Assembly (NCBI GenBank): GCA_027729805.1
Contig: JAQCEO010000013.1
Coordinates: forward strand, 1 to 40,412
DNA: 40,412 nt
Source of the DNA: Actinomycetota bacterium
Lineage (GTDB): Bacteria; Actinomycetota; Actinomycetes; S36-B12
Direction of reading: 5' to 3'
The notes beneath the pieces are model-generated. The model searched no databases, was not told the origin of the DNA, and saw nothing but the letters and a program-made list of their open reading frames with translations. Positions 635 through 27,477 of the stretch are shown piece by piece (the stretch's first letter is position 1; each line of letters starts with the position of its first letter). The position numbers and the translations under genes are program-made.

Positions 635-1471
635 TTATGGCCGGACTAAGTCGTCGTAGGCCTCCGGGCGGCGGTCGCGGTAGAAAGCCCACCGGTTCCG
701 CACCGTAGCGATCAGGTCCAGATCCAAATCTCGCACAATCAACTCGGGCAGATAGGGGTCACCCTTTTCGCCGACATACTGACCTTCTGGGTCGATGAAA
801 TACGACTGGCCGTAGAAGTCATCATCGCCAAGGTCTTCGATGCCGACCCGGTTGATTGCACCCACGTAGTATTCGTTCGCGACCGCGGCTGCTGGCTGCT
901 CGATACTCCACAGATACTGGGACAGTCCGCGGGAGGTGGCCGACGGGTTAAAGACGATCTGCGCACCATTTAAGCCAAGTGCGCGCCATCCTTCGGGGAA
1001 ATGTCGGTCATAGCAAATGTAGACGCCGATCTTCCCGACGGCGGTATCAAATACTGGATAGCCGCCATTCCCCGGGCGGAAGTAGAACTTCTCCCAGAAG
1101 CCACCAACGTGCGGAATGTGCTGCTTGCGATACTTGCCAAGATAAGTGCCGTCAGCATCGACAACTGCCGCGGTGTTATAGAGAACGCCGGGCTGCTCTT
1201 CTTCATACATTGGTAGCACCATGACCATTTTTAGCTCCTTGGCCAACTTCTGAAACCGCTCGGTGGTAGGCCCGGGTATGGACTCGGCGTATTCATAGAA
1301 CTTCACGTCTTGGACCTGGCAAAAGTACGGGCCGTAAAACAGTTCCTGGAAGCAGATCACCTGCGTACCCTGCGCCGCGGCTTGGCGGGCGTAGTCCTCA
1401 TGGGCCGCTATCATTGAGTCTTTGTTCCCGGTCCAATTGGTTTGGACTAAAGCCGCTCTAATGGTTGTCAT
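635..1471 (-). CDS. Nitrilase-family N-carbamoyl amidohydrolase, probable beta-ureidopropionase
   Basis: This enzyme hydrolyses N-carbamoyl-beta-alanine (or a similar carbamoyl compound) to the free amine, CO2 and ammonia. The 278-residue protein has the nitrilase triad: Glu43 (FQELF), Lys116 (KYRKQHIP) and Cys153 (YICYDRHFPE). The R-H-F-P-E that follows the cysteine is usual in beta-ureidopropionase and N-carbamoylputrescine amidase. I placed the start at the ATG at 1471 because it follows a strong AGGAGG; an in-frame start 18 bp upstream would lie ahead of that SD. It is the first gene of a minus-strand unit with the dihydropyrimidinase. The alternative, N-carbamoylputrescine amidase, deserves weight because the plus-strand neighbours handle putrescine, but the hydantoinase partner favours the pyrimidine role. 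Confidence 0.88.
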   Translation of the reverse strand: MTTIRAALVQTNWTGNKDSMIAAHEDYARQAAAQGTQVICFQELFYGPYFCQVQDVKFYEYAESIPGPTTERFQKLAKELKMVMVLPMYEEEQPGVLYNTAAVVDADGTYLGKYRKQHIPHVGGFWEKFYFRPGNGGYPVFDTAVGKIGVYICYDRHFPEGWRALGLNGAQIVFNPSATSRGLSQYLWSIEQPAAAVANEYYVGAINRVGIEDLGDDDFYGQSYFIDPEGQYVGEKGDPYLPELIVRDLDLDLIATVRNRWAFYRDRRPEAYDDLVRP

Positions 1472-1588
1472 TGACCCCTCCTTCTGCACGTGACCGCCAA
1501 GTTTATGCCTACACGAACTGCGGCTTTACTGGGTGACGGGTTAATTCTTTAACTGGTTTAATTGTGTTTCCCAGACTGTAACAGTTTC

Positions 1589-1601: not shown

Positions 1602-1662
1602 TCCGGCCGAATCTATTTTTATTGTGTTGAATATTTCTCTCCGAGAAACTGGAGGCCAAGCA

Positions 1663-3069
1663 TTGACAAGGAAGGGAGAGGGTCAAGTCGAGGAATGCCG
1701 CGACGTGGAGGAAGTGGTGCTGGAGGCGATCACAGACTCGTCGCCGCGGGGGATTGCTGCTGCGGTTCATCGTCTAATTCGTGCGGGACGGTTGGTAACG
1801 GGGGATCGATTACCGACGGTCCGTGGATTGGGGCTCAAACTTGACGTCAGCCCGGCAACTGTAAGCGAGGCTTGGCAGGCGCTTTCGGCAGTGGGCGCAA
1901 TCAAATCACGTGGGCGGGCAGGCACTTTTGTTCAAGACACCCGAGAACCTAGTCGACCGGTCAGGTATTTGGGGATAGGTGTGCAGGGTGGCGCCTGGGC
2001 TGCCTTAGACCTTTCCACCAGTATGCCTGACCCAGCACTACTGCCGCCGATGAATGCCGCCTTAGCTGAAGTCGCTGGCCCATCGCTTAGATGGACCACT
2101 AGTTATCTAGATAATCCCCTATTAACCAGCCTTGAAGAGATTCTCAGAGAAGATTGGCCGTTTGAGCCTCAGCGAATGGGGTTGGTCGATGGTGCACTTG
2201 ATGGATTAGCGCGGGTTGTGGAGCAAGTGGTTCATCTCGGCGACCGGGTGGCAATCGAAAACCCTGGGTTCCCTGCGCTTATGGATCTGTTGGAATCAAA
2301 TGGGGCTGAAGTGATTCCCCTTGACATGGACGAGTTAGGGGTCACGGTCGACTCCTTGGAGAGCGCGGTGCGGCAGCAGCCGGTCGCTGTCTTTACACAC
2401 CCACGGGCTCAGAACCCAACTGGAGCTAGCATGTCGGAGGCACGAGTGCGAGACCTTGCCGAGGTCATGCGATCGAGTTCTGCGTGGATTGTCGAAGCAG
2501 ATCATTCGGGTGCCATAGCAAGTGGTGCGGATCTAAGTCTTGGTACTTATCTGCCGAACCGTACCCTTAGGATTCGAAGTTATTCCAAGTCGCACGGGCC
2601 AGATTTGCGCATCGCTGCAATTGGTGGAGCTGCCGATTTGATCGACCCCTTAATGGCCCGCAGAGTGCTTGGTCCGGGCTGGACTAGTCGGATCCTGCAA
2701 GGGGTGCTGGTGAAACTGTTGACTTCGCCGGAAGCCATATCTTCCGTTAAGCTAGCTCGTGAGACTTATCAGAGAAGAAGCCTAGACTTCCGCATGGCTA
2801 TGAAAGCCAGTGGCATTCAGGTCAGTCCGGGGGACGGAATAAACGTTTGGATTCGGGTGAGAGATGAGAGAAGCGCCCTAATAACGTTAGCTGCGGCCGG
2901 GATCCAGGTCGCGCCCGGAGGGCCATTCATGGTCACCGCTTCAGCGTCTAGTCACTTGCGTGTGACCGTGGGGCTCCTTCCCGACGAGGACAGTGAGAAG
3001 GCTCGAATCTTTGCGATTTTTGCTGTTGCAGCGCAGGCTCAACCAAGTGTTAGGGGTGGGATTTCCTAG
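1663..3069 (+). CDS. MocR-type transcriptional regulator (GntR winged helix fused to class I aminotransferase domain)
   Basis: MocR/PdxR/GabR-type regulators bind DNA through an N-terminal winged helix and sense an amine, amino acid or PLP adduct through a degenerate aminotransferase domain. The 468-residue protein has a GntR helix-turn-helix near residues 20-90 (GDRLPTVRGLGLKLDVSPATV) and a fold-type-I domain with A-Q-N-P-T-G and the PLP lysine in R-S-Y-S-K-S-H-G-P-D. I chose the TTG at 1663 because GGAGG at 1651-1655 is correctly spaced before it; a GTG at 1624 has no such support. It diverges from the pyrimidine genes and lies 52 bp before the aldehyde dehydrogenase, so it may control either or both. 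GabR-like regulation by GABA is plausible but not shown. Confidence 0.85.
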   Translation: MTRKGEGQVEECRDVEEVVLEAITDSSPRGIAAAVHRLIRAGRLVTGDRLPTVRGLGLKLDVSPATVSEAWQALSAVGAIKSRGRAGTFVQDTREPSRPVRYLGIGVQGGAWAALDLSTSMPDPALLPPMNAALAEVAGPSLRWTTSYLDNPLLTSLEEILREDWPFEPQRMGLVDGALDGLARVVEQVVHLGDRVAIENPGFPALMDLLESNGAEVIPLDMDELGVTVDSLESAVRQQPVAVFTHPRAQNPTGASMSEARVRDLAEVMRSSSAWIVEADHSGAIASGADLSLGTYLPNRTLRIRSYSKSHGPDLRIAAIGGAADLIDPLMARRVLGPGWTSRILQGVLVKLLTSPEAISSVKLARETYQRRSLDFRMAMKASGIQVSPGDGINVWIRVRDERSALITLAAAGIQVAPGGPFMVTASASSHLRVTVGLLPDEDSEKARIFAIFAVAAQAQPSVRGGIS

Positions 3070-3109
3070 TTTCCGCGAACCTCAGAGGTGTGCTTGTAGC
3101 TAGTTGAGG

Positions 3110-3115
3110 TTAGAT
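3110..3115 (+). promoter_or_regulatory. Weak leaderless -10-like hexamer before the aminobutyraldehyde dehydrogenase
   Basis: TTAGAT ends exactly 6 nt before the ATG at 3122, the same spacing as the clearer leaderless promoters in this window. Its second base departs from TAnnnT. A GAGG at 3106-3109 is a poor, distant SD alternative. Confidence 0.3.
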
Positions 3116-3121
3116 GGGGCC

Positions 3122-4624
3122 ATGGCAGTAGACGGCGTGGTTGTGGGAGTGGTTGCTGGTGGGGCCAGTCGCCCCGGTACCTCCGGTGAGATCGGCACGG
3201 TAACCAACCCGGCCGATAACTCGGTGGTGGCCATCATGGAGTTTGCCGGTGCGAGTGATGTCGATAACGCAGTGCAGGCAGCCAAGGCGGCTTTTCCTGA
3301 TTGGTCGAGCGCGCCGCCGGCTACCCGAAGTGCGGCATTGGTGCGGCTGGCGGCCCGACTGGAGGTCCGGGCCGAGGAGTACGCGCAGGTCGAAAGCGCG
3401 CAGAGCGGTAAACCCATTCGCCTGACCCGTGAGTTTGATGTGCCGGGGTCAATTGACAATGTTGCCTTCTTCGCGGGTGCGGCGCGCAATCTCGAAGGCA
3501 AGGCGGCAACCGAGTGGGATGGCGTACACACCTCATACATTCGCCGGGAAGCGGTTGGCATTGTTGGCTCAATTGCCCCCTGGAACTACCCGCTGCAGAT
3601 GGCAATGTGGAAGATCCTGCCGGCGATTGCTGCAGGTAACACGATTGTGTTGAAACCCGCGGCGCTCACCCCATTGACCTCCTTGATGCTGGCCGAGGAT
3701 GCGCTGGCGGCTGACATACCGGCCGGGGTGGTAAATGTGGTGGTTGGCTCAGGGGCGATCGCGGGGGAGGCACTCATTAGCCACCCGGATATTTCGATGG
3801 TCTCCTTTACCGGTTCGACCCCAATTGGCCAGCGGGTGATGGAACTTGCTACCGCAACCGTCAAGCGGGTGCACCTAGAACTCGGTGGTAAGGCACCATT
3901 TGTGGTTTTCGACGATGCAGACTTGGAGGCGGCGATCCACGGTGCGGTCGCCGGGTCCTTGATCAATACGGGGCAGGATTGCACCGCGGCGACCCGCGCT
4001 TATGTGCAGCGCCCGCTTTTTGAGGCATTTGTTGCCGGGGTGGCAGATTTATTCGCCGGGGTGGTAATTGGCGACCCGGCCGACCCAGCAACCGATATGG
4101 GCCCACTTGTTGCCAAGCGCCAACAATTAAGTGTCGCTGGATTTGTGGATCGGGCCCGGGTAGGTGGTGCCACCGTGGTGACCGGGGGCCAGATCCCGCA
4201 AGGGGCGTTAGCCGCGGGGGCGTATTACCCACCGACTTTGGTCACCGGGGCCGACCAGCGCTCAGAAATCGTCCAAGATGAGATTTTTGGGCCGGTTTTG
4301 GTGGTGCTGCCCTTCGACAGCGATGACGAAGGCCTCGCATTGGCCAATGACACCCCGTTCGGCTTGGCGGCCTCGGCCTGGACCACCAGTTTGCTCCGGG
4401 CCCTGCGGGCCTCGCGGGAAATTCAGGCTGGGTGCGTCTGGATTAACGATCACATACCGATTGTCAGCGAAATGCCCCATGGTGGCTTTAAACGGTCCGG
4501 TTTCGGCAAGGATATGTCCACTTATTCATTTGAGGAGTACACGCAGGTAAAACATGTTTCGATAGATATCACCGGCGCTGCCCGTAAACCGTGGCACCGG
4601 ACAATCTTTACCGACAACAGTTAA
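3122..4624 (+). CDS. patD: Gamma-aminobutyraldehyde dehydrogenase (ALDH superfamily)
   Basis: This NAD-dependent enzyme oxidises 4-aminobutanal to GABA, the second step of putrescine breakdown. The 500-residue protein has the ALDH catalytic set: Asn155 (APWNYP), Glu253 (LELGGK) and nucleophile Cys287 in N-T-G-Q-D-C-T. The Q-D-C motif and the C-terminal V-S-E-M-P-H-G-G-F-K-R-S-G-F-G-K-D-M-S resemble the PatD/YdcW type rather than betaine aldehyde dehydrogenase. The ATG at 3122 is preferred over an in-frame TTG at 3104. It leads a plus-strand run (PotDABC, amine oxidase, agmatinase) that supplies its substrate. Acting on 3-aminopropanal from spermidine is a reasonable extra activity. Confidence 0.87.
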   Translation: MAVDGVVVGVVAGGASRPGTSGEIGTVTNPADNSVVAIMEFAGASDVDNAVQAAKAAFPDWSSAPPATRSAALVRLAARLEVRAEEYAQVESAQSGKPIRLTREFDVPGSIDNVAFFAGAARNLEGKAATEWDGVHTSYIRREAVGIVGSIAPWNYPLQMAMWKILPAIAAGNTIVLKPAALTPLTSLMLAEDALAADIPAGVVNVVVGSGAIAGEALISHPDISMVSFTGSTPIGQRVMELATATVKRVHLELGGKAPFVVFDDADLEAAIHGAVAGSLINTGQDCTAATRAYVQRPLFEAFVAGVADLFAGVVIGDPADPATDMGPLVAKRQQLSVAGFVDRARVGGATVVTGGQIPQGALAAGAYYPPTLVTGADQRSEIVQDEIFGPVLVVLPFDSDDEGLALANDTPFGLAASAWTTSLLRALRASREIQAGCVWINDHIPIVSEMPHGGFKRSGFGKDMSTYSFEEYTQVKHVSIDITGAARKPWHRTIFTDNS

Positions 4625-4652: not shown

Positions 4653-5876
4653 ATGTCGAACCAAATATCTGAGGCCGCTGCGGGGATCGCAGAGTTGGCC
4701 AAGGGCTCATTATCGCGTCGCCGGGTGCTTCAGGCAGCTGGTATCGGCGGGGTTGCGATGGTGGCCACCGCATGTGGTGCATCAGGCAGTGATGCCGGTA
4801 CGGCTACCGGTGCGCCAGTTGCCGCGACGGCTGCGGATCTATCGGATACCGAAAAAACGGCTAATTGGTCTAACTGGCCCCTGTACTTGGATATCAACGA
4901 CGACACCGGTGAGTACCCAACCCTTAAGGCTTTCCAAGACGCTAACGGAATAGCGGTCACCTATACCGAAGACGTTAACGACAACAATGAGTTCTACGCC
5001 AAAGTGCGTACGCAACTAGAACAAGGCCAAGACATCGGTCGCGACCTCGTGGTCCTCACCGACTGGATGGCTGCGCTGTGGATTCAAAATGGCTACGCAC
5101 AAAAACTTGATAAGGCAAATATCCCAAATTCCAAGAACCTAATCCCGAGGTTGGCGGATGTAGCGTTCGACAAGCCCCGTGACTACTCACTTCCGTGGCA
5201 GTCAGGTTTTGGCGGCCTAGGCTTCAACAAGTCTGCGGTCAAAGAGGCTTTGGGTAGCGATAAAATCACCACCCTTGATCAACTATTCGATCCCAAACTA
5301 AAGGGCCGCATCACGGTACTATCCGAAATGCGCGACACCATGGGCTGCATAATTGCTTGGCAGGGTAATGATCCGGGGAACTTCACCGATGACCAGTTCA
5401 GTCAGGCGATTGAGGCACTTGCCAAACAGATCGACAGCGGCCAGATTCGCCAGGTGACCGGTAACGACTACATAGCGGCCCTAGAATCTGGCGACGTTGT
5501 CGCGGTAATTGGTTGGTCCGGTGATCTATTCGCCCTCGGCGATGACTTCGGATTTGAAATCCCCGAGTCTGGCGGCATGCTCTGGACCGACAATATGCTC
5601 ATTCCGGCGCTCGCAGCACATAAGAAGAATGCCGAACTGATCATGAACTACTACTACGACCCGAAGGTTGCGGCCGAGGTGGCCGCATATGTGAACTACA
5701 TCTGCCCGGTTGAAGGTGCGCAGGCTGAAATGGAGAAAATTGATCCGGCGCTAGCGGCCAGTGAGTTCATTTTCCCGTCGGCGGCAACCCTTGATCGCAC
5801 TTATGTATTCAAGGCACTGACTCCCGAAGAGGGTGACAAGTACGAGCGCGAATTCCAGACCGCGATCGGCAACTAG
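4653..5876 (+). CDS. potD: Spermidine/putrescine ABC transporter, substrate-binding lipoprotein
   Basis: This is the extracytoplasmic receptor that captures polyamines for the PotABC importer. The 407-residue precursor carries a twin-arginine-like S-R-R-R-V-L-Q followed by a hydrophobic stretch and a lipobox ending at Cys41 (VATAC), so it should be exported (perhaps by Tat) and lipid-anchored outside the membrane. The mature part is a PotD/PotF-type fold with acidic and aromatic residues typical of amine pockets (Y-T-E-D-V-N-D-N-N-E-F-Y, W-Q-S-G-F-G-G-L-G-F-N, Y-Y-Y-D-P-K). The SD is AAAGGGA. It starts 28 bp after the aldehyde dehydrogenase and 4 bp before potA. Whether putrescine or spermidine is preferred cannot be read from the sequence. 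Confidence 0.92.
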   Translation: MSNQISEAAAGIAELAKGSLSRRRVLQAAGIGGVAMVATACGASGSDAGTATGAPVAATAADLSDTEKTANWSNWPLYLDINDDTGEYPTLKAFQDANGIAVTYTEDVNDNNEFYAKVRTQLEQGQDIGRDLVVLTDWMAALWIQNGYAQKLDKANIPNSKNLIPRLADVAFDKPRDYSLPWQSGFGGLGFNKSAVKEALGSDKITTLDQLFDPKLKGRITVLSEMRDTMGCIIAWQGNDPGNFTDDQFSQAIEALAKQIDSGQIRQVTGNDYIAALESGDVVAVIGWSGDLFALGDDFGFEIPESGGMLWTDNMLIPALAAHKKNAELIMNYYYDPKVAAEVAAYVNYICPVEGAQAEMEKIDPALAASEFIFPSAATLDRTYVFKALTPEEGDKYEREFQTAIGN

Positions 5877-5880
5877 GAAC

Positions 5881-7062
5881 GTGGCTGGGGCTCTTCGGCA
5901 GGTTGAGGACCTGCACCTGGTAAATCTCACCAAGAAGTTCGGGGATGCTGCCGCGGTTGATGACCTCACGTTGACCATCGCAGCAGGCTCGTTTTTCGCA
6001 CTACTCGGTGCATCCGGGTGCGGCAAGACAACCACCTTGCGAATGGTCGCCGGGTTGGAGGATCCAACCGCTGGCACTATTAGTATCGGTGCAAAAGACA
6101 TCACGAACCTTCGGGCCTTCCAGCGTCCGGTCAACACGGTGTTTCAGTCCTATGCGCTGTTCCCGCATTTAGATATTTTTGAAAATGTGGCTTTTGGGCT
6201 GCGCCGCCGCGGGATTAAGGATGTTAAGACTCCGGTCAACCAAATGCTGGAATTGGTTGAGCTGAGTGCCATGGCCAGGCGGAAGCCAACTCAACTATCA
6301 GGTGGCCAGCAGCAGCGGGTCGCGGTTGCTCGCGCCTTGATAAATGAGCCAGATGTCTTACTTTTGGATGAACCCCTTGGTGCCTTGGACCTTAAATTGC
6401 GGCGGCAGATGCAAATTGAACTCAAGCGCATTCAAAATGAGGTTGGCACAACTTTTGTGCATGTGACGCACGACCAAGAAGAGGCCATGACGATGGCCGA
6501 TACCGTCGCCATCATGAACGCCGGGCGAATCGAGCAGATGGGTAACCCAGCCACAATTTATGAACTGCCGAAGACGGTGTTTGTGGCTAATTTTTTGGGG
6601 CAGTCCAATCTGATCACCGGTGCTGCGCAAGGGCGAAGTGGTGACGACATCTTGGTGTCAGCGCACGGGCAGACCTATGTAGTGCCGGCGGCGCGATCAA
6701 CGGCACCGGGGGTGGCGGTCATCGTGGGCGTGCGACCCGAGAAAATTACTGTTCTTGACGCCGTGGATGGCCACCGAGCCCCTGATGCGCACAATAAGAT
6801 CGCCGGTCGAGTAACTGACGTTTCATACGCCGGGGTGTCAACCCAATACCTTGTGCGCACACCATGGGATCAAGAACTCACGGTATTCGAACAAAATGTC
6901 ATCGTGGGGGATCGTTGCTCGGTGGGCGATGAGGTGCTATTACATTGGGCAACCGAGCACACCTTTGGCCTAGACGGTGCGCAAGATGTCCACGCGGGGG
7001 TCTTGCCGGAGGTGCTGGACCTCGAGGCGACGGCCAGTGCACTTGAAAGTCGCGGCGCCTAA
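5881..7062 (+). CDS. potA: Polyamine ABC transporter ATPase
   Basis: This ATP-hydrolysing subunit powers polyamine uptake through PotBC. The 393-residue protein has Walker A at residues 43-51 (GASGCGKTT), the Q-loop in T-V-F-Q-S-Y, the signature L-S-G-G-Q-Q-Q-R, Walker B V-L-L-L-D-E-P and the switch histidine V-T-H-D-Q-E-E-A. A C-terminal TOBE-like region follows (R-P-E-K-I-T-V, V-S-Y-A-G-V-S-T-Q-Y). The GTG at 5881, 4 bp after the potD stop, is preferred; an in-frame GTG at 5833 would overlap potD by 44 nt. The SD is poor, so translation is probably coupled to potD. Spacing of 2 bp to potB indicates one transcript. Confidence 0.92.
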   Translation: MAGALRQVEDLHLVNLTKKFGDAAAVDDLTLTIAAGSFFALLGASGCGKTTTLRMVAGLEDPTAGTISIGAKDITNLRAFQRPVNTVFQSYALFPHLDIFENVAFGLRRRGIKDVKTPVNQMLELVELSAMARRKPTQLSGGQQQRVAVARALINEPDVLLLDEPLGALDLKLRRQMQIELKRIQNEVGTTFVHVTHDQEEAMTMADTVAIMNAGRIEQMGNPATIYELPKTVFVANFLGQSNLITGAAQGRSGDDILVSAHGQTYVVPAARSTAPGVAVIVGVRPEKITVLDAVDGHRAPDAHNKIAGRVTDVSYAGVSTQYLVRTPWDQELTVFEQNVIVGDRCSVGDEVLLHWATEHTFGLDGAQDVHAGVLPEVLDLEATASALESRGA

Positions 7063-7064
7063 TC

Positions 7065-7955
7065 GTGTCACCGATACTTGTTGCGGAGCCGGCAAAGCCG
7101 GTTGTTGTGGCCCAGCGTCGCTCCCGAACCGGATACATTTTGCTGTTCCCCGGCATGACTTGGCTGGCAATCTTCTTCGCGATTCCGTTCATCACCTTGT
7201 TCATGACGAGTTTGCAACAACCTGTGCCGGGCAAGATTGGCAAATATCAGGCGGGGTTTGAGCTTAGTAACTACGCGAACGCAATGGTCGAGTATTGGCC
7301 GCAATTCCTTAGATCTTTCGTCTACGCTGGGATCGCCACCCTGCTCGCGTTGATTATCGCCTACCCACTTGCGTATTTCATTGCGATGAAGGGCGGTAGA
7401 TGGCGACCACTGTTGCTGGTGCTGGTGATCGCACCATCCTTCGCATCATTCCTGCTTCGCACCTATGCCTGGCGCACTATCTTGTCTGATGAAGGCCCGA
7501 TCACCTCCTTTTTCAATGCCCTACACCTACTGCCAGATGATCGAATCCTGAATACCGGAATCGCGGTGGTTGCGGGCCTGACGTATAACTTCCTGCCCTT
7601 CATGATTTTGCCGCTTTATGCGGCCCTCGAAAAGATTGACCCGCGGTTGATTGAGGCCGCAAGCGACCTCTACGCCTCGGCAACGACGACCTTCCGCAAA
7701 GTTACCTGGCCGCTCTCGCTGCCGGGGGTGGTTGCCGGAACATTGCTGACGTTCATTCCGGCAGCCGGTGACTACATCAATGCCGAACTATTGGGGTCAA
7801 CCAAGGACCGCATGATCGGCAACGTGATCCAGACCAACTTCATTGAATTTCGTGACTACCCAACGGCAAGTGCACTCTCCTTTGTCCTGATGGCCGTGAT
7901 CTTGGTGATGGTGTTCACCTATATTCGAAGAGCCGGGACGGAGGAACTGGTCTGA
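7065..7955 (+). CDS. potB: Polyamine ABC transporter permease 1
   Basis: This inner-membrane subunit forms half of the polyamine channel. The 296-residue protein has about six membrane segments, beginning near residues 23-45 (YILLFPGMTWLAIFFAIPF). The EAA loop that docks on PotA is seen as E-A-A-S-D-L-Y-A-S-A-T-T-T-F-R-K-V-T-W-P-L-S-L-P-G. The start is a GTG 2 bp after potA without an SD, consistent with coupling. The stop overlaps the potC start (TGATG arrangement at 7953-7957). Assignment to the PotB/PotC pair rests on family resemblance and on the full DABC order. Confidence 0.92.
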   Translation: MSPILVAEPAKPVVVAQRRSRTGYILLFPGMTWLAIFFAIPFITLFMTSLQQPVPGKIGKYQAGFELSNYANAMVEYWPQFLRSFVYAGIATLLALIIAYPLAYFIAMKGGRWRPLLLVLVIAPSFASFLLRTYAWRTILSDEGPITSFFNALHLLPDDRILNTGIAVVAGLTYNFLPFMILPLYAALEKIDPRLIEAASDLYASATTTFRKVTWPLSLPGVVAGTLLTFIPAAGDYINAELLGSTKDRMIGNVIQTNFIEFRDYPTASALSFVLMAVILVMVFTYIRRAGTEELV

Positions 7956-8752
7956 TGCGCTTTATTCGCCGCAACCTCCTTGGCCTCATCGCTATTCTCG
8001 TTCTAGTTTATCTATTCATCCCGATCGCTGTCGTGGCAATATTGAGCTTCAATAATCCCACTGGCAAATTCAATCTCGCCTGGACCCAGTTCTCGACGGA
8101 TGCCTGGACGAATCTGTGTGGCGTACCCGGGGTCTGCTCATCATTTGTCACCAGTATTCAAATTGGCATTATCGCAACCATCGTTGCTACGGCACTTGGA
8201 ACCATGATCGCCTTCGCCTTGGTCCGCTACCGTTTTCGTGGCCGAAGTACCACCAATTTGTTGATCTTCTTGCCGATGGCAACCCCGGAAGTTGTTATGG
8301 GTTCGAGTTTGCTCGCCCTGTTCTTGAACCTGCGATTCCCGCTGGGTCAGTGGACGGTGGTTATCGCGCACATCATGTTCATCATTTCTTTCGTGGTAGT
8401 CACGGTTAAAGCCAGATTGCAGGGCCTTGATCCTAGGCTTGAGGAAGCGGCGCGCGATCTGTACGCCAATCCACGGGCAACATTTCGATACGTCACTTTA
8501 CCGCTGGTCACGCCGGGGATCGCCGGTGCTGCACTACTTGGTTTTTCGTTGTCATTCGATGACTTCATCATCAGCTATTTCAACGCGGGCACCTTGGTGA
8601 CATTCCCGATCTTCATTTGGGGCGCGGCGCAACGTGGTATCCCGGTGCAGGTCAATGCGCTGGCAACACTTGTTTTCATTATCGCACTACTTATTGTGCT
8701 CGGTAGTCAATTGGTAAATTACCGGCGCCGGAGAAAGCTAATGTCGGTCTGA
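7955..8752 (+). CDS. potC: Polyamine ABC transporter permease 2
   Basis: This is the second channel subunit of the polyamine importer. The 265-residue protein has six predicted membrane segments, starting at residues 8-30 (LLGLIAILVLVYLFIPIAVV). Its EAA loop reads E-E-A-A-R-D-L-Y-A-N-P-R-A-T-F-R-Y-V-T-L-P-L-V-T-P-G. S-F-D-D-F-I-I-S-Y-F just after is a common PotC feature. Its ATG overlaps the potB stop by one base. It ends the transporter block; the next gene follows after a 134-bp gap that holds a structured leader. Confidence 0.92.
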   Translation: MRFIRRNLLGLIAILVLVYLFIPIAVVAILSFNNPTGKFNLAWTQFSTDAWTNLCGVPGVCSSFVTSIQIGIIATIVATALGTMIAFALVRYRFRGRSTTNLLIFLPMATPEVVMGSSLLALFLNLRFPLGQWTVVIAHIMFIISFVVVTVKARLQGLDPRLEEAARDLYANPRATFRYVTLPLVTPGIAGAALLGFSLSFDDFIISYFNAGTLVTFPIFIWGAAQRGIPVQVNALATLVFIIALLIVLGSQLVNYRRRRKLMSV

Positions 8753-8786: not shown

Positions 8787-8894
8787 ATGAGGCTGGAAAC
8801 AGCCGCGATTTGGTTGAAGGGACTGGTGGGATCCCCGGAGCGTCGGCCCCGGTATCCGAGAGTCCTTCTACCGAAAGGTCAAACCCGTGTTTGA
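8787..8894 (+). CDS. Candidate 35-codon upstream ORF before the amine oxidase
   Basis: An ATG at 8787 follows AGGGAG (8776-8781) with good spacing and opens a 35-codon frame rich in Arg and Pro in its second half. It overlaps the first bases of the PuuB-like gene in another frame and stops at 8894. A GAAA-capped hairpin lies inside it. It could be a leader peptide or a coupling device, or an accident of base composition; no homologue is recognised. Confidence 0.35.
   Translation: MRLETAAIWLKGLVGSPERRPRYPRVLLPKGQTRV
8791..8804 (+). promoter_or_regulatory. GAAA-tetraloop hairpin in the leader of the amine oxidase
   Basis: GGCTG at 8791-8795 pairs exactly with CAGCC at 8800-8804 around the tetraloop GAAA. 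This tight RNA element lies in the potC-amine oxidase gap. Confidence 0.45.
8818..8867 (+). promoter_or_regulatory. Longer nested hairpin in the leader of the amine oxidase
   Basis: The outer stem pairs the segment ending in GGACT (8820-8824) with AGTCC (8861-8865). Inside it GGAT (8829-8832) pairs with ATCC (8854-8857) and CCGG (8835-8838) with CCGG (8849-8852). It ends 6 bp before the SD GAAAGG (8873-8878). No T-run follows, so it is not an obvious terminator; a regulatory or mRNA-stabilising role is possible. Confidence 0.4.
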
Positions 8895-10302
8895 TGAGAC
8901 GCAAACCGAAGCCTCGACTAAGTCACTCGTAAATGTTCGTCATAACATTTTTTGGCTCGATGACCCGAGTCGACCCGCAGCGCGGCCACAATTACAGGCG
9001 CATATCAATGCCGACTTTTGTGTAGTTGGCGGTGGGTTCAGTGGCCTTTGGACCGCGGTACTTGCTAAACAGCAGCATCCGGACTGGAGCGTGGTCCTAC
9101 TCGAAGGTGATCGGATCGCGAGTGGGGCAACCGGCCGCAATGGTGGGTTCTGCGCGGCCTCGCTAACCCATGGGCTCGCAAATGGCATGAGCAGGTGGCC
9201 AAGTGAGATGCCGACCCTGCTGCAGTTGGGCAAGGAGAACTTGGATGCGATTGAAGTGTTCGTAGCCGACCACGGGATCGACTGCGAGTTCATTCGCTCG
9301 GGGGATTTAGCGGTTGCGACGGAGCCTTATCAAGTCACCGATTTAATTGAGCTGTGCGAGGTGGGTAAAGCACTCGGCATTTCATATAAATTTCTCGATG
9401 ATGCGAACCTACGAAGTAGAGTCGATTCACCCACTTATCTTGCTGGACTATTCGATGGCTCAGGGACCGCAATGCTGAACCCGGCGCGGCTGGCTTGGGG
9501 CTTGGCACGGGTCGCGGCCGATTTGGGCGTCGATATTTATGAGCAGTCGCCGGTATTAACCAGCAAAGACAAAGGGGCAACTGTCAGCATCTTCACGCAC
9601 TCAGGGAGTGTGGCTGCAGCAAGAGTGGCGCTTGCGACAAGTGCTTATCCACCGTTACTTCGTCGCATCCGCAACTACGTGGTGCCGGTTTACGACTGCG
9701 TGTTGGTGTCGGAGCCGCTATCCCACCAGCAACGTGCGTTGGTGCGATGGGATGGCCGTGAGGGCTTGTCCGATTGTGGGAATCAGTTCCACTACTACCG
9801 AATTACCGCCGATGGCCGAATCCTGTGGGGTGGCTATGACGCGGTGTACCACCGCGGAAACGGCTTTGGTCCGCAGTACGAATTTGATGAGGAATCCTTT
9901 GGGAGATTGGCAGCGCACTTCTTCCAGACCTTCCCACAATTAGCCGGGCTGGAGTTTTCCCATGCGTGGGGCGGGGCGATTGATACGTGTTCACGCTTTA
10001 GCGCCTTTTGGGGTAAGGCACACGGCGGTAAGACCGTCTACGTATCCGGGTTTACCGGATTAGGTGTCGGCGCCTCGAGGTTTGGCGCGCAGGTCATGCT
10101 GGATCTATTGGCTGGGCATAACACGATGCGTACGCAATTACAGATGGTAAGGAAGAAGCCGAAACCGTTTCCGCCCGAGCCACTGCGGTCCATCGGTATT
10201 GATTGGACAACTAGATCCTTACAGGCGGCCGACCGAAATTCTGGGCGCCGCAATTTGTGGTTGCGCACATTGGATCGGTTCGGGTTGGGGTTTGACTCCT
10301 AA
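8887..10302 (+). CDS. FAD-dependent amine oxidase, PuuB-like (DAO family)
   Basis: DAO-family flavoenzymes of this type oxidise an amine to an aldehyde with release of ammonia and hydrogen peroxide; PuuB acts on gamma-glutamylputrescine. The 471-residue protein has an N-terminal Rossmann FAD motif (D-F-C-V-V-G-G-G-F-S-G-L), the S-G-A-T-G-R-N-G-G-F segment common to PuuB-like oxidases, and the C-terminal nucleotide-contact motif Y-V-S-G-F-T-G-L-G-V-G-A-S-R. The GTG at 8887 follows GAAAGG with 8-nt spacing. It lies between the polyamine importer and the agmatinase, so an amine from the putrescine route is the likely substrate. No gamma-glutamylputrescine synthetase or hydrolase is in the window; direct oxidation of putrescine, or partners elsewhere, are both open. 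Confidence 0.83.
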   Translation: MFDETQTEASTKSLVNVRHNIFWLDDPSRPAARPQLQAHINADFCVVGGGFSGLWTAVLAKQQHPDWSVVLLEGDRIASGATGRNGGFCAASLTHGLANGMSRWPSEMPTLLQLGKENLDAIEVFVADHGIDCEFIRSGDLAVATEPYQVTDLIELCEVGKALGISYKFLDDANLRSRVDSPTYLAGLFDGSGTAMLNPARLAWGLARVAADLGVDIYEQSPVLTSKDKGATVSIFTHSGSVAAARVALATSAYPPLLRRIRNYVVPVYDCVLVSEPLSHQQRALVRWDGREGLSDCGNQFHYYRITADGRILWGGYDAVYHRGNGFGPQYEFDEESFGRLAAHFFQTFPQLAGLEFSHAWGGAIDTCSRFSAFWGKAHGGKTVYVSGFTGLGVGASRFGAQVMLDLLAGHNTMRTQLQMVRKKPKPFPPEPLRSIGIDWTTRSLQAADRNSGRRNLWLRTLDRFGLGFDS

Positions 10303-10325: not shown

Positions 10326-11351
10326 ATGACGCGGTACGGGGCACAATTTGGGCCGGATATCACCTTTCTCGGAGTGGATCGCTGTGATCTAGACGTACCT
10401 AGTACGTATGAGGACGCCGATATTGTGATTCTGGGTGCGCCATTTGATGGCGGTACCTCCTTTCGAAGTGGTGCCCGTTTCGGCCCGCAGGCGATTCGAG
10501 CAACCTGCTACCTACCGCATGACGGTAGCCGGCCATCACTGGCGATGCGAGTAGATGGCTTGGCCGATATCCGAGTTGTCGATGCCGGTGACGTCGAGAT
10601 GTATAGCGGGGACGCGGCTACCGCATGCGCTTCCTTGGAGGCGGTGGTTGAGAAGGTTGCCAGGACCGGAGCTATCCCAATTATTTTGGGTGGTGATCAC
10701 ACCATTACCTGGCCAGATGTCACCGGGGTGGCGCGCGCATGCGGGTGGGGCAAGGTTGCAATCATCCATTTCGATGCGCACGCTGACACTGGTGACACCT
10801 GCTTTGGTTCACTAATCGGTCACGGCCAACCAATGCGCCGACTGATCGAGTCCGGGGCGGCTCGCGGTGACCGTTTCCTGCAGATTGGGCTGCGTGGTTA
10901 TTGGCCCGAGCCGCAAACCCTGCAATGGATGGCCGAGCAGGGCATGCGCTCATACGAGATGACTGAGATTGTCGAACGTGGTCTAAGTGAAGTTTTGACC
11001 GAAGTATTTAAGATTGCTTTGGATGAATGCGACGGGGTGTTCCTGAGTGTAGATATAGATGTCTGCGACCCGGGCCACGCACCAGGCACCGGTACTCCAG
11101 AACCCGGTGGCCTTACCGCGCGGGAGTTACTTGATGCGGTGCGACGTATCTGCTACGAGTTGCCCGTCGTCGGCATGGATATTGTCGAAGTTGCTCCACC
11201 CTTTGATCATGCTGACATCACGGTGATGCTAGGTAACCGCGTGGTGCTGGAAGCACTATCAGCAATCGCTCGACGCCGGCAAGATGATCGCGATGGCACG
11301 ACTTGGGATCCGCGACAGCCACTGCTCGCTGACCGCACCCCGGGGGAGTAG
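10326..11351 (+). CDS. speB: Agmatinase-family ureohydrolase
   Basis: Ureohydrolases of this family remove urea from a guanidino compound; agmatinase gives putrescine. The 341-residue protein keeps the binuclear manganese site: His125 in G-G-D-H-T, Asp150/His152/Asp154 in D-A-H-A-D, and Asp243/Asp245 in S-V-D-I-D-V-C-D-P. V-G-M-D-I-V-E-V-A-P-P near the end is typical of agmatinases. It has its own promoter and is followed after 2 bp by the saccharopine-dehydrogenase-like gene. Its position beside polyamine import and oxidation fits agmatine to putrescine. Guanidinobutyrase, which would give GABA directly, or another guanidino hydrolase are realistic alternatives, since substrate residues cannot be decided by eye. 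Confidence 0.85.
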   Translation: MTRYGAQFGPDITFLGVDRCDLDVPSTYEDADIVILGAPFDGGTSFRSGARFGPQAIRATCYLPHDGSRPSLAMRVDGLADIRVVDAGDVEMYSGDAATACASLEAVVEKVARTGAIPIILGGDHTITWPDVTGVARACGWGKVAIIHFDAHADTGDTCFGSLIGHGQPMRRLIESGAARGDRFLQIGLRGYWPEPQTLQWMAEQGMRSYEMTEIVERGLSEVLTEVFKIALDECDGVFLSVDIDVCDPGHAPGTGTPEPGGLTARELLDAVRRICYELPVVGMDIVEVAPPFDHADITVMLGNRVVLEALSAIARRRQDDRDGTTWDPRQPLLADRTPGE

Positions 11352-11353
11352 CA

Positions 11354-12565
11354 ATGCGAGTACTCGCAATTGGCTCAGGAGGGGTGGGCACTTCTGCCGC
11401 ACTGATAGCAAAGCGCCGAGACTTCTTCGAGGTTTGGGTTTGCGCGGACTATGAGCTGAGCCGGGCCCAGGGTTTAGTGGACCGAGTGGGTGACGCACGT
11501 TTTTTGGCCGCTCAAATTGATGCGGCGAATACCGCCGAGATCACCAGACTATGTCAGGCTCATGGCATAACCCACGTGCTGAATGTAATTGATCCGCGCT
11601 ACGTGATGCCAATTTTTGACGGCGCATTTGCGGCCCGCGCCAACTACCTCGACACCGCAATGAGCCTTTCGCGGCCCCACCCGACCCTGCCACATGAACA
11701 AGTGGGTGTCATGCTCGGTGCTGAGCAGTTTGCAAAGGAGCCGCAGTGGCAAGAGGCTGGCCTCTTGGCCTTGTGCGGAGTTGGCGTGGAGCCCGGACTC
11801 TCGGATGTTTTCGCCAGGTATGCCGCAGATCACCTATTTACTGAAATCGATGAGATCGGCATCCGCGATGGCGCCAATTTATCGGTTGCGGGCTACGACT
11901 TCGCTCCGTCATTTTCAATCTGGACCACGATCGAGGAGTGCCTTAACCCACCGGTGATCTGGGAGGAGGGCAGAGGCTGGTTCACGACCGCGCCATTTAG
12001 TGAACCTGAGGTGTTCGATTTCCCCGAAGGAATCGGACCGGTTGAATGTGTCAATGTTGAGCACGAGGAAGTCCTTTTAGTTCCACGCTGGATCAAATGC
12101 AAGCGAGTTACCTTCAAATACGGACTAGGCGATGAGTTCATTGAAGTGCTAAAGACCTTACATAAACTCGGGCTCGACAGCACGACGCCGGTAAGTGTCA
12201 GAGGGGTGATGGTAAGTCCGCGGGATTTAGTGGCGGCTGCATTGCCGGACCCAGCGACTCTCGGTGACAAAATGACCGGCAAGACTTGCGCGGGTACTTG
12301 GGTTACTGGCATCGGAAATGCGGGTGAACCAAAGTCGGTTTATCTTTATCACGTGCTCGATAATGCATGGTCCATGCGTGAATACGGTGTGCAGGCGGTG
12401 GTTTGGCAAGCGGCCATGAATCCGGTAATCGCCCTTGAGTTGCTAGCAACAAATGCGTGGCAGGGTACCGGGGTATTAGGCCCGGAAGCGTTTGACGCCG
12501 TCCAGTTCTTAGAGTTAATGGAATCTGGTTACGGTCAAAAATTCGGGCTCAGGGTCGACAGTTAG
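11354..12565 (+). CDS. Saccharopine dehydrogenase-like oxidoreductase of unknown substrate
   Basis: The 403-residue protein starts with a Rossmann nucleotide-binding motif (V-L-A-I-G-S-G-G-V-G at residues 3-12), continues with T-H-V-L-N-V-I-D-P-R-Y, and has a large C-terminal domain of the saccharopine dehydrogenase/carboxy(nor)spermidine dehydrogenase superfamily. These enzymes make or split C-N bonds between an aldehyde or keto acid and an amine with NAD(P)H. The ATG follows GGGGGAG, 2 bp after the agmatinase, so the two are co-transcribed. No carboxynorspermidine decarboxylase is nearby, so classical spermidine synthesis is not supported. A role in handling aminoaldehydes, lysine or polyamine adducts is possible but unproven. 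It converges on the GABA aminotransferase with a 3-bp gap. Confidence 0.75.
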   Translation: MRVLAIGSGGVGTSAALIAKRRDFFEVWVCADYELSRAQGLVDRVGDARFLAAQIDAANTAEITRLCQAHGITHVLNVIDPRYVMPIFDGAFAARANYLDTAMSLSRPHPTLPHEQVGVMLGAEQFAKEPQWQEAGLLALCGVGVEPGLSDVFARYAADHLFTEIDEIGIRDGANLSVAGYDFAPSFSIWTTIEECLNPPVIWEEGRGWFTTAPFSEPEVFDFPEGIGPVECVNVEHEEVLLVPRWIKCKRVTFKYGLGDEFIEVLKTLHKLGLDSTTPVSVRGVMVSPRDLVAAALPDPATLGDKMTGKTCAGTWVTGIGNAGEPKSVYLYHVLDNAWSMREYGVQAVVWQAAMNPVIALELLATNAWQGTGVLGPEAFDAVQFLELMESGYGQKFGLRVDS

Positions 12566-12568
12566 TAC

Positions 12569-13918
12569 TTAACCGGTGGCTTCGAAGCCGCGTTCGACAA
12601 TGCTCAACGCCTCTTCGAGCAGGTGCATTGGCATGGTCAGTGGCGGTAGGAAACGCATGACATTGGAGTAGGTGCCGGTGGTGAGCACCATCACCCCTTC
12701 GCCGTGGCAATACTTCGCGACCGCGCTGGTGCGCTCAGGGTCTGGCTCCATAGTGCCCGGGCGAATGAGCTCAATTGCGAGCATCGCCCCGCGACCACGG
12801 ATCTCGCCGATGGTGGGGTGATTGACTTTCATCGCGGCCAAGGCGGGCAGCATTACCGACTCAATTGCTTTAGCCCGACCGCAGGCATCCTCTTCTTCCA
12901 TCCACCTGATTGCCCCTAGGGCGGCCGCGCAGGCAACCGGGCTGCCCCCGTAGGTGCCACCGAGGCCCCCGGCGTGCACCGAATCCATTATCTCGGCTCG
13001 CCCGGTAACTCCGGCCAGGGGCAGGCCGCCAGCGATCCCCTTGGCGGTAGTTACTAGGTCAGGGATAACACCTTCGTAACTGCTGGCGAACCAGTCGCCG
13101 GTGCGGCAAAAACCGCTTTGGATTTCATCAGCCACGAACACGATGCCGTTCGCCTTTGCGAACGCTGCTATCGCGGCAAAGTAACCGGCGCCTGGGACGA
13201 TGAAGCCGCCCTCACCTTGAATCGGCTCGATGACGATCGCGGCCACCTTGGTGCCACCGATCTCCTTCTCGATGCGGCTAATGGCTCGCTTGGCGATATC
13301 TAGTCCTGACAATGGTGCATCGCGGAAGGGATATGAGGTGGGGACGCGGTAAACCTCCGACGCGAATGGGCCAAAGCCATCCTTGTAGGGCATGTTCTTC
13401 GCTGTCATCGCCATAGTGAGGTTGGTGCGGCCGTGATAGCCGTGTTCGACAACGACGACCGCGGCTCGATTGGTGTAAGACCGAGCAATCTTGACGGCAT
13501 TTTCGATGGCCTCAGCACCGGAGTTGAAAAGTGCCGATCTCTTGGCATGGTCCCCGGGGGTTAAGCGATTAAGTGCCTCACAGACTTCGACATAACCTGA
13601 GTAGGGATTCACCATGAAGCAGGTATGGGTAAATGCCGCCACTTGACGCTGCACATTTTCGACCACATAAGGGTTGGCGTTGCCGACCGTGGTGACCGCA
13701 ATACCTGAACCCATATCAATGATGGAGTTACCGTCAACGTCTACCAGGACACCGCCACCGGCTTTGGCCACGAAAACCGGCAAGGTCACGCCGACCCCGT
13801 TTGATACCGCCTCGGTTTTACGTGCCAGCAGAGCCATTGATTTTGGCCCGGGGATAGCAGTAACGAGCCGGCGCTCTTGGGCCAGTTCGTTGTCGGTGCG
13901 CTCAGGGGTAAGAGTCAT
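12569..13918 (-). CDS. gabT: 4-aminobutyrate aminotransferase
   Basis: This PLP enzyme moves the amino group of GABA to 2-oxoglutarate, giving succinate semialdehyde. The 449-residue protein has the class III signature: N-S-G-A-E-A for phosphate binding, the Y-H-G-R-T-N motif, V-A-D-E-I-Q-S-G-F, and the PLP lysine at residue 293 (TTAKGIAGGLPL). It closely follows actinobacterial GabT, with the N-terminal R-R-L-V-T-A-I-P-G-P and G-G-L-G-G-T-Y-G-G-S-P. The start at 13918 is chosen because GGAG lies 6 nt before it and the leader length fits the family; ATGs at 13930 and 13990 are in frame. It diverges from the aldehyde dehydrogenase that would use its product. It may also accept beta-alanine from the pyrimidine arm. 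Confidence 0.92.
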   Translation of the reverse strand: MTLTPERTDNELAQERRLVTAIPGPKSMALLARKTEAVSNGVGVTLPVFVAKAGGGVLVDVDGNSIIDMGSGIAVTTVGNANPYVVENVQRQVAAFTHTCFMVNPYSGYVEVCEALNRLTPGDHAKRSALFNSGAEAIENAVKIARSYTNRAAVVVVEHGYHGRTNLTMAMTAKNMPYKDGFGPFASEVYRVPTSYPFRDAPLSGLDIAKRAISRIEKEIGGTKVAAIVIEPIQGEGGFIVPGAGYFAAIAAFAKANGIVFVADEIQSGFCRTGDWFASSYEGVIPDLVTTAKGIAGGLPLAGVTGRAEIMDSVHAGGLGGTYGGSPVACAAALGAIRWMEEEDACGRAKAIESVMLPALAAMKVNHPTIGEIRGRGAMLAIELIRPGTMEPDPERTSAVAKYCHGEGVMVLTTGTYSNVMRFLPPLTMPMHLLEEALSIVERGFEATG

Positions 13919-13989
13919 TAGGGTCTCCATGTTTGGTCCTAGGTGGGAGTCTAAGTCAAGGCGCGTAATCTCGCCGTAGAAGGGTGACA

Positions 13990-13995
13990 TAGATT
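13990..13995 (+). promoter_or_regulatory. Leaderless -10 hexamer (TAGATT) of the GabD-like gene
   Basis: TAGATT ends exactly 6 nt before the ATG at 14002, and no SD precedes that ATG. The site is part of a mirrored CATAG...CTATG inverted repeat (13988-13992 and 14000-14004). Confidence 0.5.
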
Positions 13996-14001
13996 TTGCC
14001 T

Positions 14002-15465
14002 ATGGCCAGGCAAGAGTTGCACACCCCTCGGCATTGGCCAGCATGGATCGCGGGCACCGCTTCAGACGCGGGTGAACTAGCTGAGGTAACCCACCCAGGT
14101 GATGGGTCGGTGGTCGGCACCTACCCGGTGCCCGATGCGGCCAGCGTGGAAGCCGCCATCGAAGGGGCCTGGCAGGTGCGTAGGGTCGCCCAGCGCACTT
14201 CGGCCGCCCAGCGGGCCGCCGCGCTAACCCATGTCTCGCGCCGGTTGGAAGAGCGTCTTGACGAAGTAGCCGCGCTCATTACCGCCGAAAACGGCAAACC
14301 GATAACCTGGTCGCGGGCCGAGGCCACACGCGCGGTGTCGACATTTCGATGGGCGGCGGAAGAAGCCCGTCGGTTCAACGGCGAGTTCCAGCGACTGGAC
14401 ACCGAGGCTGCTACCGAGGGCCGCGCTGCAATTATTCGTCGTTTCCCGCATGGACCGGTCCTTGGGATTTCGCCATTTAACTTCCCGGTCAACCTGGTCG
14501 CCCACAAGATTGCGCCCGCACTCGCCGTTGGCGCACCGATTGTGGTCAAACCCGCCCCTGCCACCCCACTGGGTGCGCTCCTTCTTGGCGAGTTGCTCGG
14601 TGAAACCGACCTGCCGGCCGGCATGTTCTCGGTTATCCCGGTCGGTAACGAGGTAGCGCCAGCATTGGTAGCCGACCCGCGACTACCGGTCATTTCGTTC
14701 ACGGGATCAGAGCCTGTCGGGTTCGCAATTCAGCGCGAGGTACCAAATAAGCACATAGTTCTTGAACTGGGTGGCAATGCTGCTGCGATCGTCCTGGGCG
14801 ACTACAGCAGCGATAAGGATCTGCAGTGGGCAGCTCGACGCATTGCCATGTATGGCAACGCGCAGGCTGGGCAGACCTGCGTGTCGGTGCAGCGCATCTT
14901 TGTAGCAGAGTCAGTTGCCGAAGCATTCACCGATCGACTAATTGAGCATGTGCATGCGCTTGTCAAGGGTTCACCTTGGGATGCGGCTACTGAAGTCGGC
15001 CCCATGATCAGCGAGGCTGCTGCGGTGCGAGTGGCCGAGTGGGTGCGAGAGGCGGTTGCGGCCGGAGCCAAAGTGCTGGCCGGGGGTTCGCGTAATGGCA
15101 CCTCTATCGAGCCAACCCTGCTCGCCAATGTCGATCCATCGGTTCGGGTCTCATGTGAAGAGGTCTTTGGCCCGGTGATGTCAATCCAGGTCATCAAAGA
15201 TTTAGACGAGGGCATTGACCTAGTAAACAATTCGAGGTTCGGCTTGCAGACCGGCCTGTTTACTCACGATATTCACGAGATTTTTCGCGCACACCGTGAA
15301 CTTGAGGTGGGCGGTGTCATCATTGGCGATGCTCCGACCTTCCGTGCTGACCAGATGCCGTACGGCGGAATCAAGGCTTCGGGGGTGGGCCGTGAAGGAT
15401 TGCGGTCAGCGATGACCGATTTAACCCATGAGCGCGTGTTGGTCCTGACCGATCTCGCGCTTTAG
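14002..15465 (+). CDS. Aldehyde dehydrogenase, probable succinate-semialdehyde dehydrogenase
   Basis: The likely reaction is NAD(P)-dependent oxidation of succinate semialdehyde to succinate, ending the GABA route. The 487-residue protein has Asn160 (SPFNFP), Glu255 (LELGGN) and the nucleophile Cys293 (QAGQTC). The start at 14002 is supported by the leaderless promoter; an in-frame TTG lies 6 bp upstream. The A-Q-A-G-Q-T-C-V-S-V-Q-R motif is closer to a broad group including lactaldehyde and phosphonoacetaldehyde dehydrogenases than to enterobacterial GabD, so the function rests on the divergent gabT. Malonate-semialdehyde or another short aldehyde is an alternative substrate. Confidence 0.75.
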   Translation: MARQELHTPRHWPAWIAGTASDAGELAEVTHPGDGSVVGTYPVPDAASVEAAIEGAWQVRRVAQRTSAAQRAAALTHVSRRLEERLDEVAALITAENGKPITWSRAEATRAVSTFRWAAEEARRFNGEFQRLDTEAATEGRAAIIRRFPHGPVLGISPFNFPVNLVAHKIAPALAVGAPIVVKPAPATPLGALLLGELLGETDLPAGMFSVIPVGNEVAPALVADPRLPVISFTGSEPVGFAIQREVPNKHIVLELGGNAAAIVLGDYSSDKDLQWAARRIAMYGNAQAGQTCVSVQRIFVAESVAEAFTDRLIEHVHALVKGSPWDAATEVGPMISEAAAVRVAEWVREAVAAGAKVLAGGSRNGTSIEPTLLANVDPSVRVSCEEVFGPVMSIQVIKDLDEGIDLVNNSRFGLQTGLFTHDIHEIFRAHRELEVGGVIIGDAPTFRADQMPYGGIKASGVGREGLRSAMTDLTHERVLVLTDLAL

Positions 15466-27392: not shown

Positions 27393-27412
27393 AAATGACT
27401 GTTAAGAAATGA
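27365..27412 (+). CDS. Candidate 15-codon micro-ORF with a repeated A-F-E-M unit
   Basis: The frame encodes MNAFEMSAFEMTVKK and stops at 27412. It is coupled through ATGA to the preceding micro-ORF and carries the 15-nt tandem repeat, giving two A-F-E-M units. Four AAATG motifs provide several possible initiation points in a row. A leader-peptide or ribosome-loading role ahead of infB is inferred. Confidence 0.35.
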   Translation: MNAFEMSAFEMTVKK

Positions 27413-27441
27413 CGCTGCAATGAGGCGTCCTACGCACTGAC

Positions 27442-27463
27442 GGTCCGGAGCAAGGCCCGGACC
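27442..27463 (+). promoter_or_regulatory. Hairpin just before the infB ribosome binding site
   Basis: GGTCCGG (27442-27448) pairs perfectly with CCGGACC (27457-27463) around an 8-nt loop, ending 5 bp before AGGAG. No T-run follows, so it is more likely an mRNA element than a terminator. Confidence 0.45.
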
Positions 27464-27477
27464 AAGACAGGAGAATC

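Follow-up and report, generated by a model that had tools for sequence, protein, structure and literature searches.

An uncharacterised actinobacterial sister family of CASDH located among polyamine uptake and degradation genes

The saccharopine-dehydrogenase fold is shared by several described enzymes that act on amines. In BfCASDH, the carboxyspermidine dehydrogenase (CASDH) of B. fragilis, the catalytic residues are E188, H228, E229 and E230. NADP+ is touched at its adenosine part by Ser34, Arg35 and Thr36, of which Ser34 and Thr36 lie at the 2'-phosphate, and there is no turnover with NADH; the authors of that study also argued that the structures 4INA and 4RL6 are CASDHs (PMC10413350). 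The His-Glu-Glu set of these enzymes is absent from lysine 6-dehydrogenase, and the active site of saccharopine reductase/dehydrogenase is arranged differently (PMC10413350). Bacterial homospermidine synthase (HSS), an NAD-dependent enzyme with a Glu-His-Glu triad, acts on polyamines; it oxidises putrescine, and formation of homospermidine from spermidine as the sole substrate is possible (PMC4725965). Polyamine catabolism in Streptomyces has been described as proceeding by aminotransferase, glutamylation, oxidation, acetylation and spermidine dehydrogenase routes, and the S. coelicolor system (SCO5655-SCO5679, GlnA2/GlnA3) comprises an importer, an oxidoreductase, aldehyde dehydrogenases and a GABA transaminase (PMC5403932, PMC8998196). 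None of these routes includes an enzyme of the family described here, and no saccharopine dehydrogenase-like enzyme is mentioned in these two papers. Nor did full-text searches of the literature open to readers without subscription, on saccharopine dehydrogenase together with polyamine catabolism, find a description of the family.

The gene studied here lies at 11354-12565 in a window of 40,412 nucleotides, the whole stretch of DNA that was analysed, from an actinobacterial genome assembly of 2.0 Mb that is 96% complete. The first-pass annotation had called it saccharopine-dehydrogenase-like, and the call holds: the reading frame is open and full length, encodes 403 amino acids from an ATG start, and matches both Sacchrp_dh_NADP (2e-15) and Sacchrp_dh_C (4e-22). 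Its ATG follows the end of the ureohydrolase gene by 2 bp, as that annotation had also stated, and the ureohydrolase passes the NCBIfam agmatinase cut-off. The motif GGGGGAG, which resembles a ribosome-binding site, directly precedes the ATG, and in a consensus scan no terminator-like site separated the ureohydrolase gene from the 11354 gene. The surrounding genes are collected in Table 1, in their order on the DNA. From the MocR-type regulator to the last aldehyde dehydrogenase only the GABA transaminase runs on the opposite strand, and the cluster is one of polyamine uptake and degradation, with a set of genes similar to that of S. coelicolor. Elsewhere in the window, at 27402-30216, a 912-aa reading frame on the forward strand overlaps a 384-aa reading frame on the reverse strand across about 1 kb.

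Table 1. Position, strand and supporting matches of the 11354 gene and its neighbours in the window.
Feature	Coordinates	Strand	Evidence
N-carbamoylputrescine amidase-like hydrolase, cluster edge	635..1489	-	TIGR03381 244 bits, below cut-off 410
MocR-type GntR/aminotransferase regulator	1624..3069	+	PF00392 + PF00155
Aminobutyraldehyde dehydrogenase	3104..4624	+	NF010000 678.6 bits, cut-off 615
Polyamine-binding protein, PotD/PotF-like	4653..5876	+	PotF and PotD the best NCBIfam matches, below cut-offs
Polyamine ABC ATPase, PotA-like	5833..7062	+	TIGR01187 353.7 bits, cut-off 355.6
Polyamine ABC permease, PotB-like	7065..7955	+	best match NF007044 PotB, below cut-off
Polyamine ABC permease, PotC-like	7955..8752	+	best NCBIfam match NF007047 PotC, below cut-off
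FAD-dependent DAO-family oxidase, likely polyamine or gamma-glutamylpolyamine oxidase	8887..10302	+	PF01266
Ureohydrolase (agmatinase by NCBIfam)	10326..11351	+	PF00491; TIGR01230 201 bits, cut-off 174
NAD-type (predicted) saccharopine-dehydrogenase-fold oxidoreductase, sister family of CASDH	11354..12565	+	PF03435 + PF16653
4-aminobutyrate transaminase (GabT-like), convergent with the 11354 gene	12569..13990	-	TIGR00700 556 bits, cut-off 507
Aldehyde dehydrogenase, possibly succinate-semialdehyde dehydrogenase	13996..15465	+	PF00171; SSADH model 307 bits, below cut-off

An AlphaFold model of the 11354 protein (pLDDT 88) was compared with solved structures. The nearest were CASDHs (8DEB, 8H4Z, 4INA/4RL6), the best match being 8DEB with Z 50.4 and 2.0 A across 388 residues. 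Carboxynorspermidine dehydrogenase had been named in the first-pass annotation as one member of the superfamily, and CASDH is indeed the nearest characterised enzyme (~28% identity). The CASDH/CANSDH group (8DEB, 8H52, 4INA, 4RL6; NF043000) shares with the 11354 protein its length of ~400 aa, the whole-length fold (Z 45-50) and the catalytic Glu and His-Glu-Glu; the identity is ~26-30%. More distant matches were L-lysine dehydrogenase 3ABI, an oxidative amine dehydrogenase (Z 35; 14% identity, profile E 8e-7), and bacterial HSS (Z ~29-30), which is longer (~475 aa), has ~15-17% identity by structure and gives a weak profile match to residues 2-164 only, the N-terminal half (E 3e-5). Saccharopine reductase/dehydrogenase (1FF9, 5L78) shares the fold (Z 29 for the reductase) and the Pfam domains but only 13-14% identity, with a profile comparison for 1FF9/1E5L of E 0.17 at 14% identity.

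The residue pattern in 174 close relatives both joins the family to CASDH and separates it. The BfCASDH catalytic residues are kept as E195, H237, E238 and E239 in 174/174, and D32, W190, E194, K255 and Q352 are likewise invariant. In a set of 13 CASDH-type proteins the cofactor loop reads Ser (13/13), Arg (13/13) and Thr (12/13), whereas in the 11354 protein it is Asp32-Tyr33-Glu34; the position of BfCASDH Ser34 is Asp32 in every relative, and 153/174 have Asp or Glu at that of Thr36. NAD enzymes are usually recognised by an acidic residue at the end of beta-2. The replacement of the CASDH Ser and Thr by Asp32 and, usually, a second acid thus points to NAD rather than NADPH. On the presumed substrate side, the Arg187 that precedes the catalytic Glu in CASDH (13/13) is Glu194 and the CASDH Trp (11/13) is Lys255. 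The E of the CASDH NPE motif is Trp190 and CASDH Thr343 is Gln352. Each of these four changes is present in all 174 relatives. Trp190 lies five residues before the catalytic Glu; the corresponding spacing for Trp229, the cation-pi residue of HSS, is eight. The family can be told from CASDH by a signature consisting of D32 in the cofactor loop, S-I-W-T-T-I-E-E-C, V-E-H-E-E-V and F-K.

Of 246 actinobacterial genomes drawn evenly, 41, or about one in six, carried a relative with at least 58% identity. Below this group the identity falls to 46, 35 and 31% for the next matches, leaving a clear gap. Among the matches listed for GTDB contigs, more than 570 loci match the family, and the nearest relatives come from metagenome assemblies that bear the label Actinomycetota or Candidatus Nanopelagicales. 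Streptomyces, Mycobacterium, Micromonospora and freshwater Nanopelagicales are among the carriers on record. A FastTree phylogeny was built from 40 family members and the 13 CASDH-type proteins, which include the S. meliloti pSymB protein encoded beside nspC. On this tree the family is a clade separate from CASDH and its sister (support 0.957 for the family and 1.0 for CASDH), so no clear orthology to a characterised enzyme emerged. We reject orthology with CASDH on the grounds of the clade, the cofactor loop, the absence of NspC (see below) and the score against the NCBIfam equivalog of these dehydrogenases, NF043000, which gives 162.6 bits against a cut-off of 800.

Three kinds of more distant or unusual homologue were seen. 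An outgroup pair, L208 and L209, from two distant actinobacterial genomes is 33% identical and joins the family with support 0.999; it shares Asp32, Glu194, Lys255 and Gln352 with the family, has Ser at position 190, and lies (L208 4378-11755, and L209) in a cluster of Lrp, dehydrogenase and DAO oxidase genes with a class III aminotransferase, an aldehyde dehydrogenase and an EamA transporter. The pair is possibly a second branch with another substrate. At L056, L057 and L059, in related genomes, another saccharopine-dehydrogenase-like gene of a different family, ~27-31% identical, is divergent from a PotABCD-type operon. One homologue (L086 9638-11350, MAG JADGOZ010000076.1) aligns as two segments separated by a gap, which suggests a frameshift, a partial duplication or an assembly error.

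Unlike the CASDH systems, the 11354 gene has no NspC partner and sits in a catabolic cluster, as the first-pass annotation had recognised. The source assembly contains a single gene of the Orn/DAP/Arg decarboxylase fold, no NspC-type decarboxylase and no SpeD-type AdoMet decarboxylase (PF02675). Since the latter is missing, the cell probably takes up its spermidine instead of making it by the common routes. No family carrier in the 246-genome phylum sample has a strong NspC match. The one strong match in the sample (383 bits, genome G208) adjoins a CASDH-type gene ~31% identical to the 11354 protein, and so serves as a positive control for the search; the remaining matches scored 18-45 bits. 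The source genome also has eight or nine glutamine synthetase catalytic-domain matches, one of them short, on contigs C21, C43, C42, C69, C57 and C7, a number that seems high for a 2-Mb genome. Several of these genes resemble gamma-glutamylamine ligases, and one adjoins an aldehyde dehydrogenase.

Marker genes within 7 kb of the family gene were counted in 97 dereplicated carriers. A polyamine uptake or degradation gene was found in 59, and no marker in 38. The individual counts were 29 for GABA transaminase, 29 for aldehyde dehydrogenase, 27 for Pot, 23 for the oxidase, 22 for APC, 17 for agmatinase, 11 for aminotransferase and 0 for NspC. The gene had been described as having no known partner, but these importers, oxidases, aldehyde dehydrogenases and GABA transaminases recur beside it. 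At the genome level, the FAD oxidase was present in 22/40 carriers against 15/205 non-carriers (Fisher p 2.5e-11, with our own genome excluded and kinship ignored). In a sampled genus that matches the Streptomyces TetR-gene pattern (g37), all carriers have the oxidase and some genomes with the oxidase lack the family gene, a distribution that would fit an optional extension of the pathway, for example one by which spermidine is handled besides putrescine.

The pairing with agmatinase, taken at first as the key clue, proved largely unconserved, although it is kept in Nanopelagicales, Micromonospora and a few others; as the partner of a minority of carriers, agmatinase was rejected as the defining one. 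In order-level relatives the gene is mostly found with PotDABC and the FAD oxidase, with agmatinase present or not, and the clusters L034, L053 and L055 lack it. In L012 and L035 an agmatine deiminase (PF04371; 422-1498 in L012) occupies the agmatinase slot between the FAD oxidase and the family gene, with an N-carbamoylputrescine amidase at the opposite end of the cluster, as in the cluster of Table 1. This is a non-homologous swap of the agmatine-to-putrescine step. The Micromonospora order is PotDABC, oxidase, family gene, agmatinase; in Nocardioidaceae and on an M. ulcerans plasmid the gene follows an aminobutyraldehyde dehydrogenase with an aminotransferase adjoining, and in Micrococcales it follows an APC permease. 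It stands alone in Streptomyces, Mycolicibacterium and several MAG lineages. The neighbours of such lone copies, in Mycolicibacterium, in MAGs labelled Chloroflexi and in further lineages (P450, TGT, EfeO/DyP, DABA-decarboxylase-like, alkyl sulfatase and AMP-ligase genes), showed no recurrent partner.

A catabolic role for the family is probable. We infer NAD+ use, an oxidative direction and a polyamine-type substrate, and tentatively favour, at a little short of an even chance, an NAD+-dependent dehydrogenase that would oxidatively split an imported polyamine. Spermidine is the most likely substrate, and is itself put forward with just under even confidence; next in line would be an N-substituted derivative that the oxidase or transaminase encoded nearby could make. 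The polyamine would bind in a putative acidic pocket, the Glu195-His237-Glu239 set would take up protons, and hydride would pass from the carbon beside the secondary nitrogen to NAD+. Hydrolysis of the resulting imine by water would then give an aminoaldehyde (4-aminobutanal or 3-aminopropanal) and a diamine, so that, if the hydrolytic mode is right, the net reaction would be polyamine + NAD+ + H2O -> aminoaldehyde + diamine + NADH. The pieces could be carried to succinate by the adjacent aldehyde dehydrogenase, GABA transaminase and succinate-semialdehyde dehydrogenase, with putrescine fed in from the side by agmatinase, or by agmatine deiminase and N-carbamoylputrescine amidase. HSS, with the same fold, NAD and use of spermidine alone, sets a precedent for an NAD-dependent opening of polyamine C-N bonds in such proteins. 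The change from Arg to Glu194, at the proposed aspartate semialdehyde site of CASDH, would favour a fully cationic substrate. Of the two directions first suggested, reductive joining and oxidative splitting, it is the splitting of a polyamine-type amine that is best supported, and joining is disfavoured. Against polyamine splitting stand the 38 carriers with no marker gene nearby; the neighbouring enzymes would also be accounted for by putrescine alone, with no need to split a polyamine.

In a rival reading the enzyme would split not the polyamine itself but a carboxylated or glutamylated derivative, such as putreanine, N-(3-aminopropyl)-GABA or a gamma-glutamyl intermediate, supplied by the FAD oxidase or by transaminase and aldehyde dehydrogenase. 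This would be a saccharopine-like cleavage, in which a carboxylate-bearing secondary amine yields an amino acid and an aldehyde. We consider this unlikely, though several features agree with it. The family gene often follows the FAD oxidase (median gap 82 bp) or an aminotransferase/aldehyde dehydrogenase pair, the invariant Lys255 could bind a carboxylate, and the gamma-glutamylamine-ligase-like genes of the source genome mean that the substrate could be a glutamylated intermediate. However, Glu194 in place of the CASDH Arg would suit a cation better than a carboxylate, and in Micrococcales the gene follows only the APC importer. No bacterial enzyme was found in the literature on putreanine.

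In a third reading, to which we give a similarly low probability, the enzyme would use NAD+ to dehydrogenate a primary amine (putrescine, agmatine, cadaverine, or an amino acid such as lysine or ornithine), releasing NH3 in the manner of lysine 6-dehydrogenase. In its favour, only CASDH matches the model more closely than L-lysine dehydrogenase 3ABI, and the adjoining genes handle putrescine-derived aldehydes. Against it, this step already falls to the FAD oxidase or aminotransferase of the same clusters, and the His-Glu-Glu kept here is the set that lysine 6-dehydrogenase lacks. Very unlikely is a biosynthetic synthase of the carboxyspermidine or homospermidine type, joining an aminoaldehyde reductively to a diamine or amino acid: the nearest named family is carboxynorspermidine synthase and agmatinase also occurs in CASDH operons elsewhere, but the source genome has neither NspC nor the PF02675 SpeD family, carriers in the phylum sample have no strong NspC, the cofactor loop points to NAD, and the cluster is one of uptake and degradation.

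Oxidative splitting of an imported polyamine remains the reading we prefer. In its most specific form, the enzyme would be a spermidine (polyamine) dehydrogenase of an undescribed type, dependent on NAD+ but not on oxygen, and would cut an internal C-N bond by CASDH/HSS-type chemistry run in reverse, which we regard as a real possibility but somewhat doubtful. As a whole the family forms a genuine and coherent subfamily, as yet uncharacterised, within a known kind of enzyme; it does not make up a new class of chemistry. If the specific form is true, it would give actinobacteria a route of spermidine breakdown distinct from flavin and haem oxidases, acetylation and gamma-glutamylation. The family is widespread in actinobacteria, and appears to have been remade from polyamine building to NAD+-linked breakdown.
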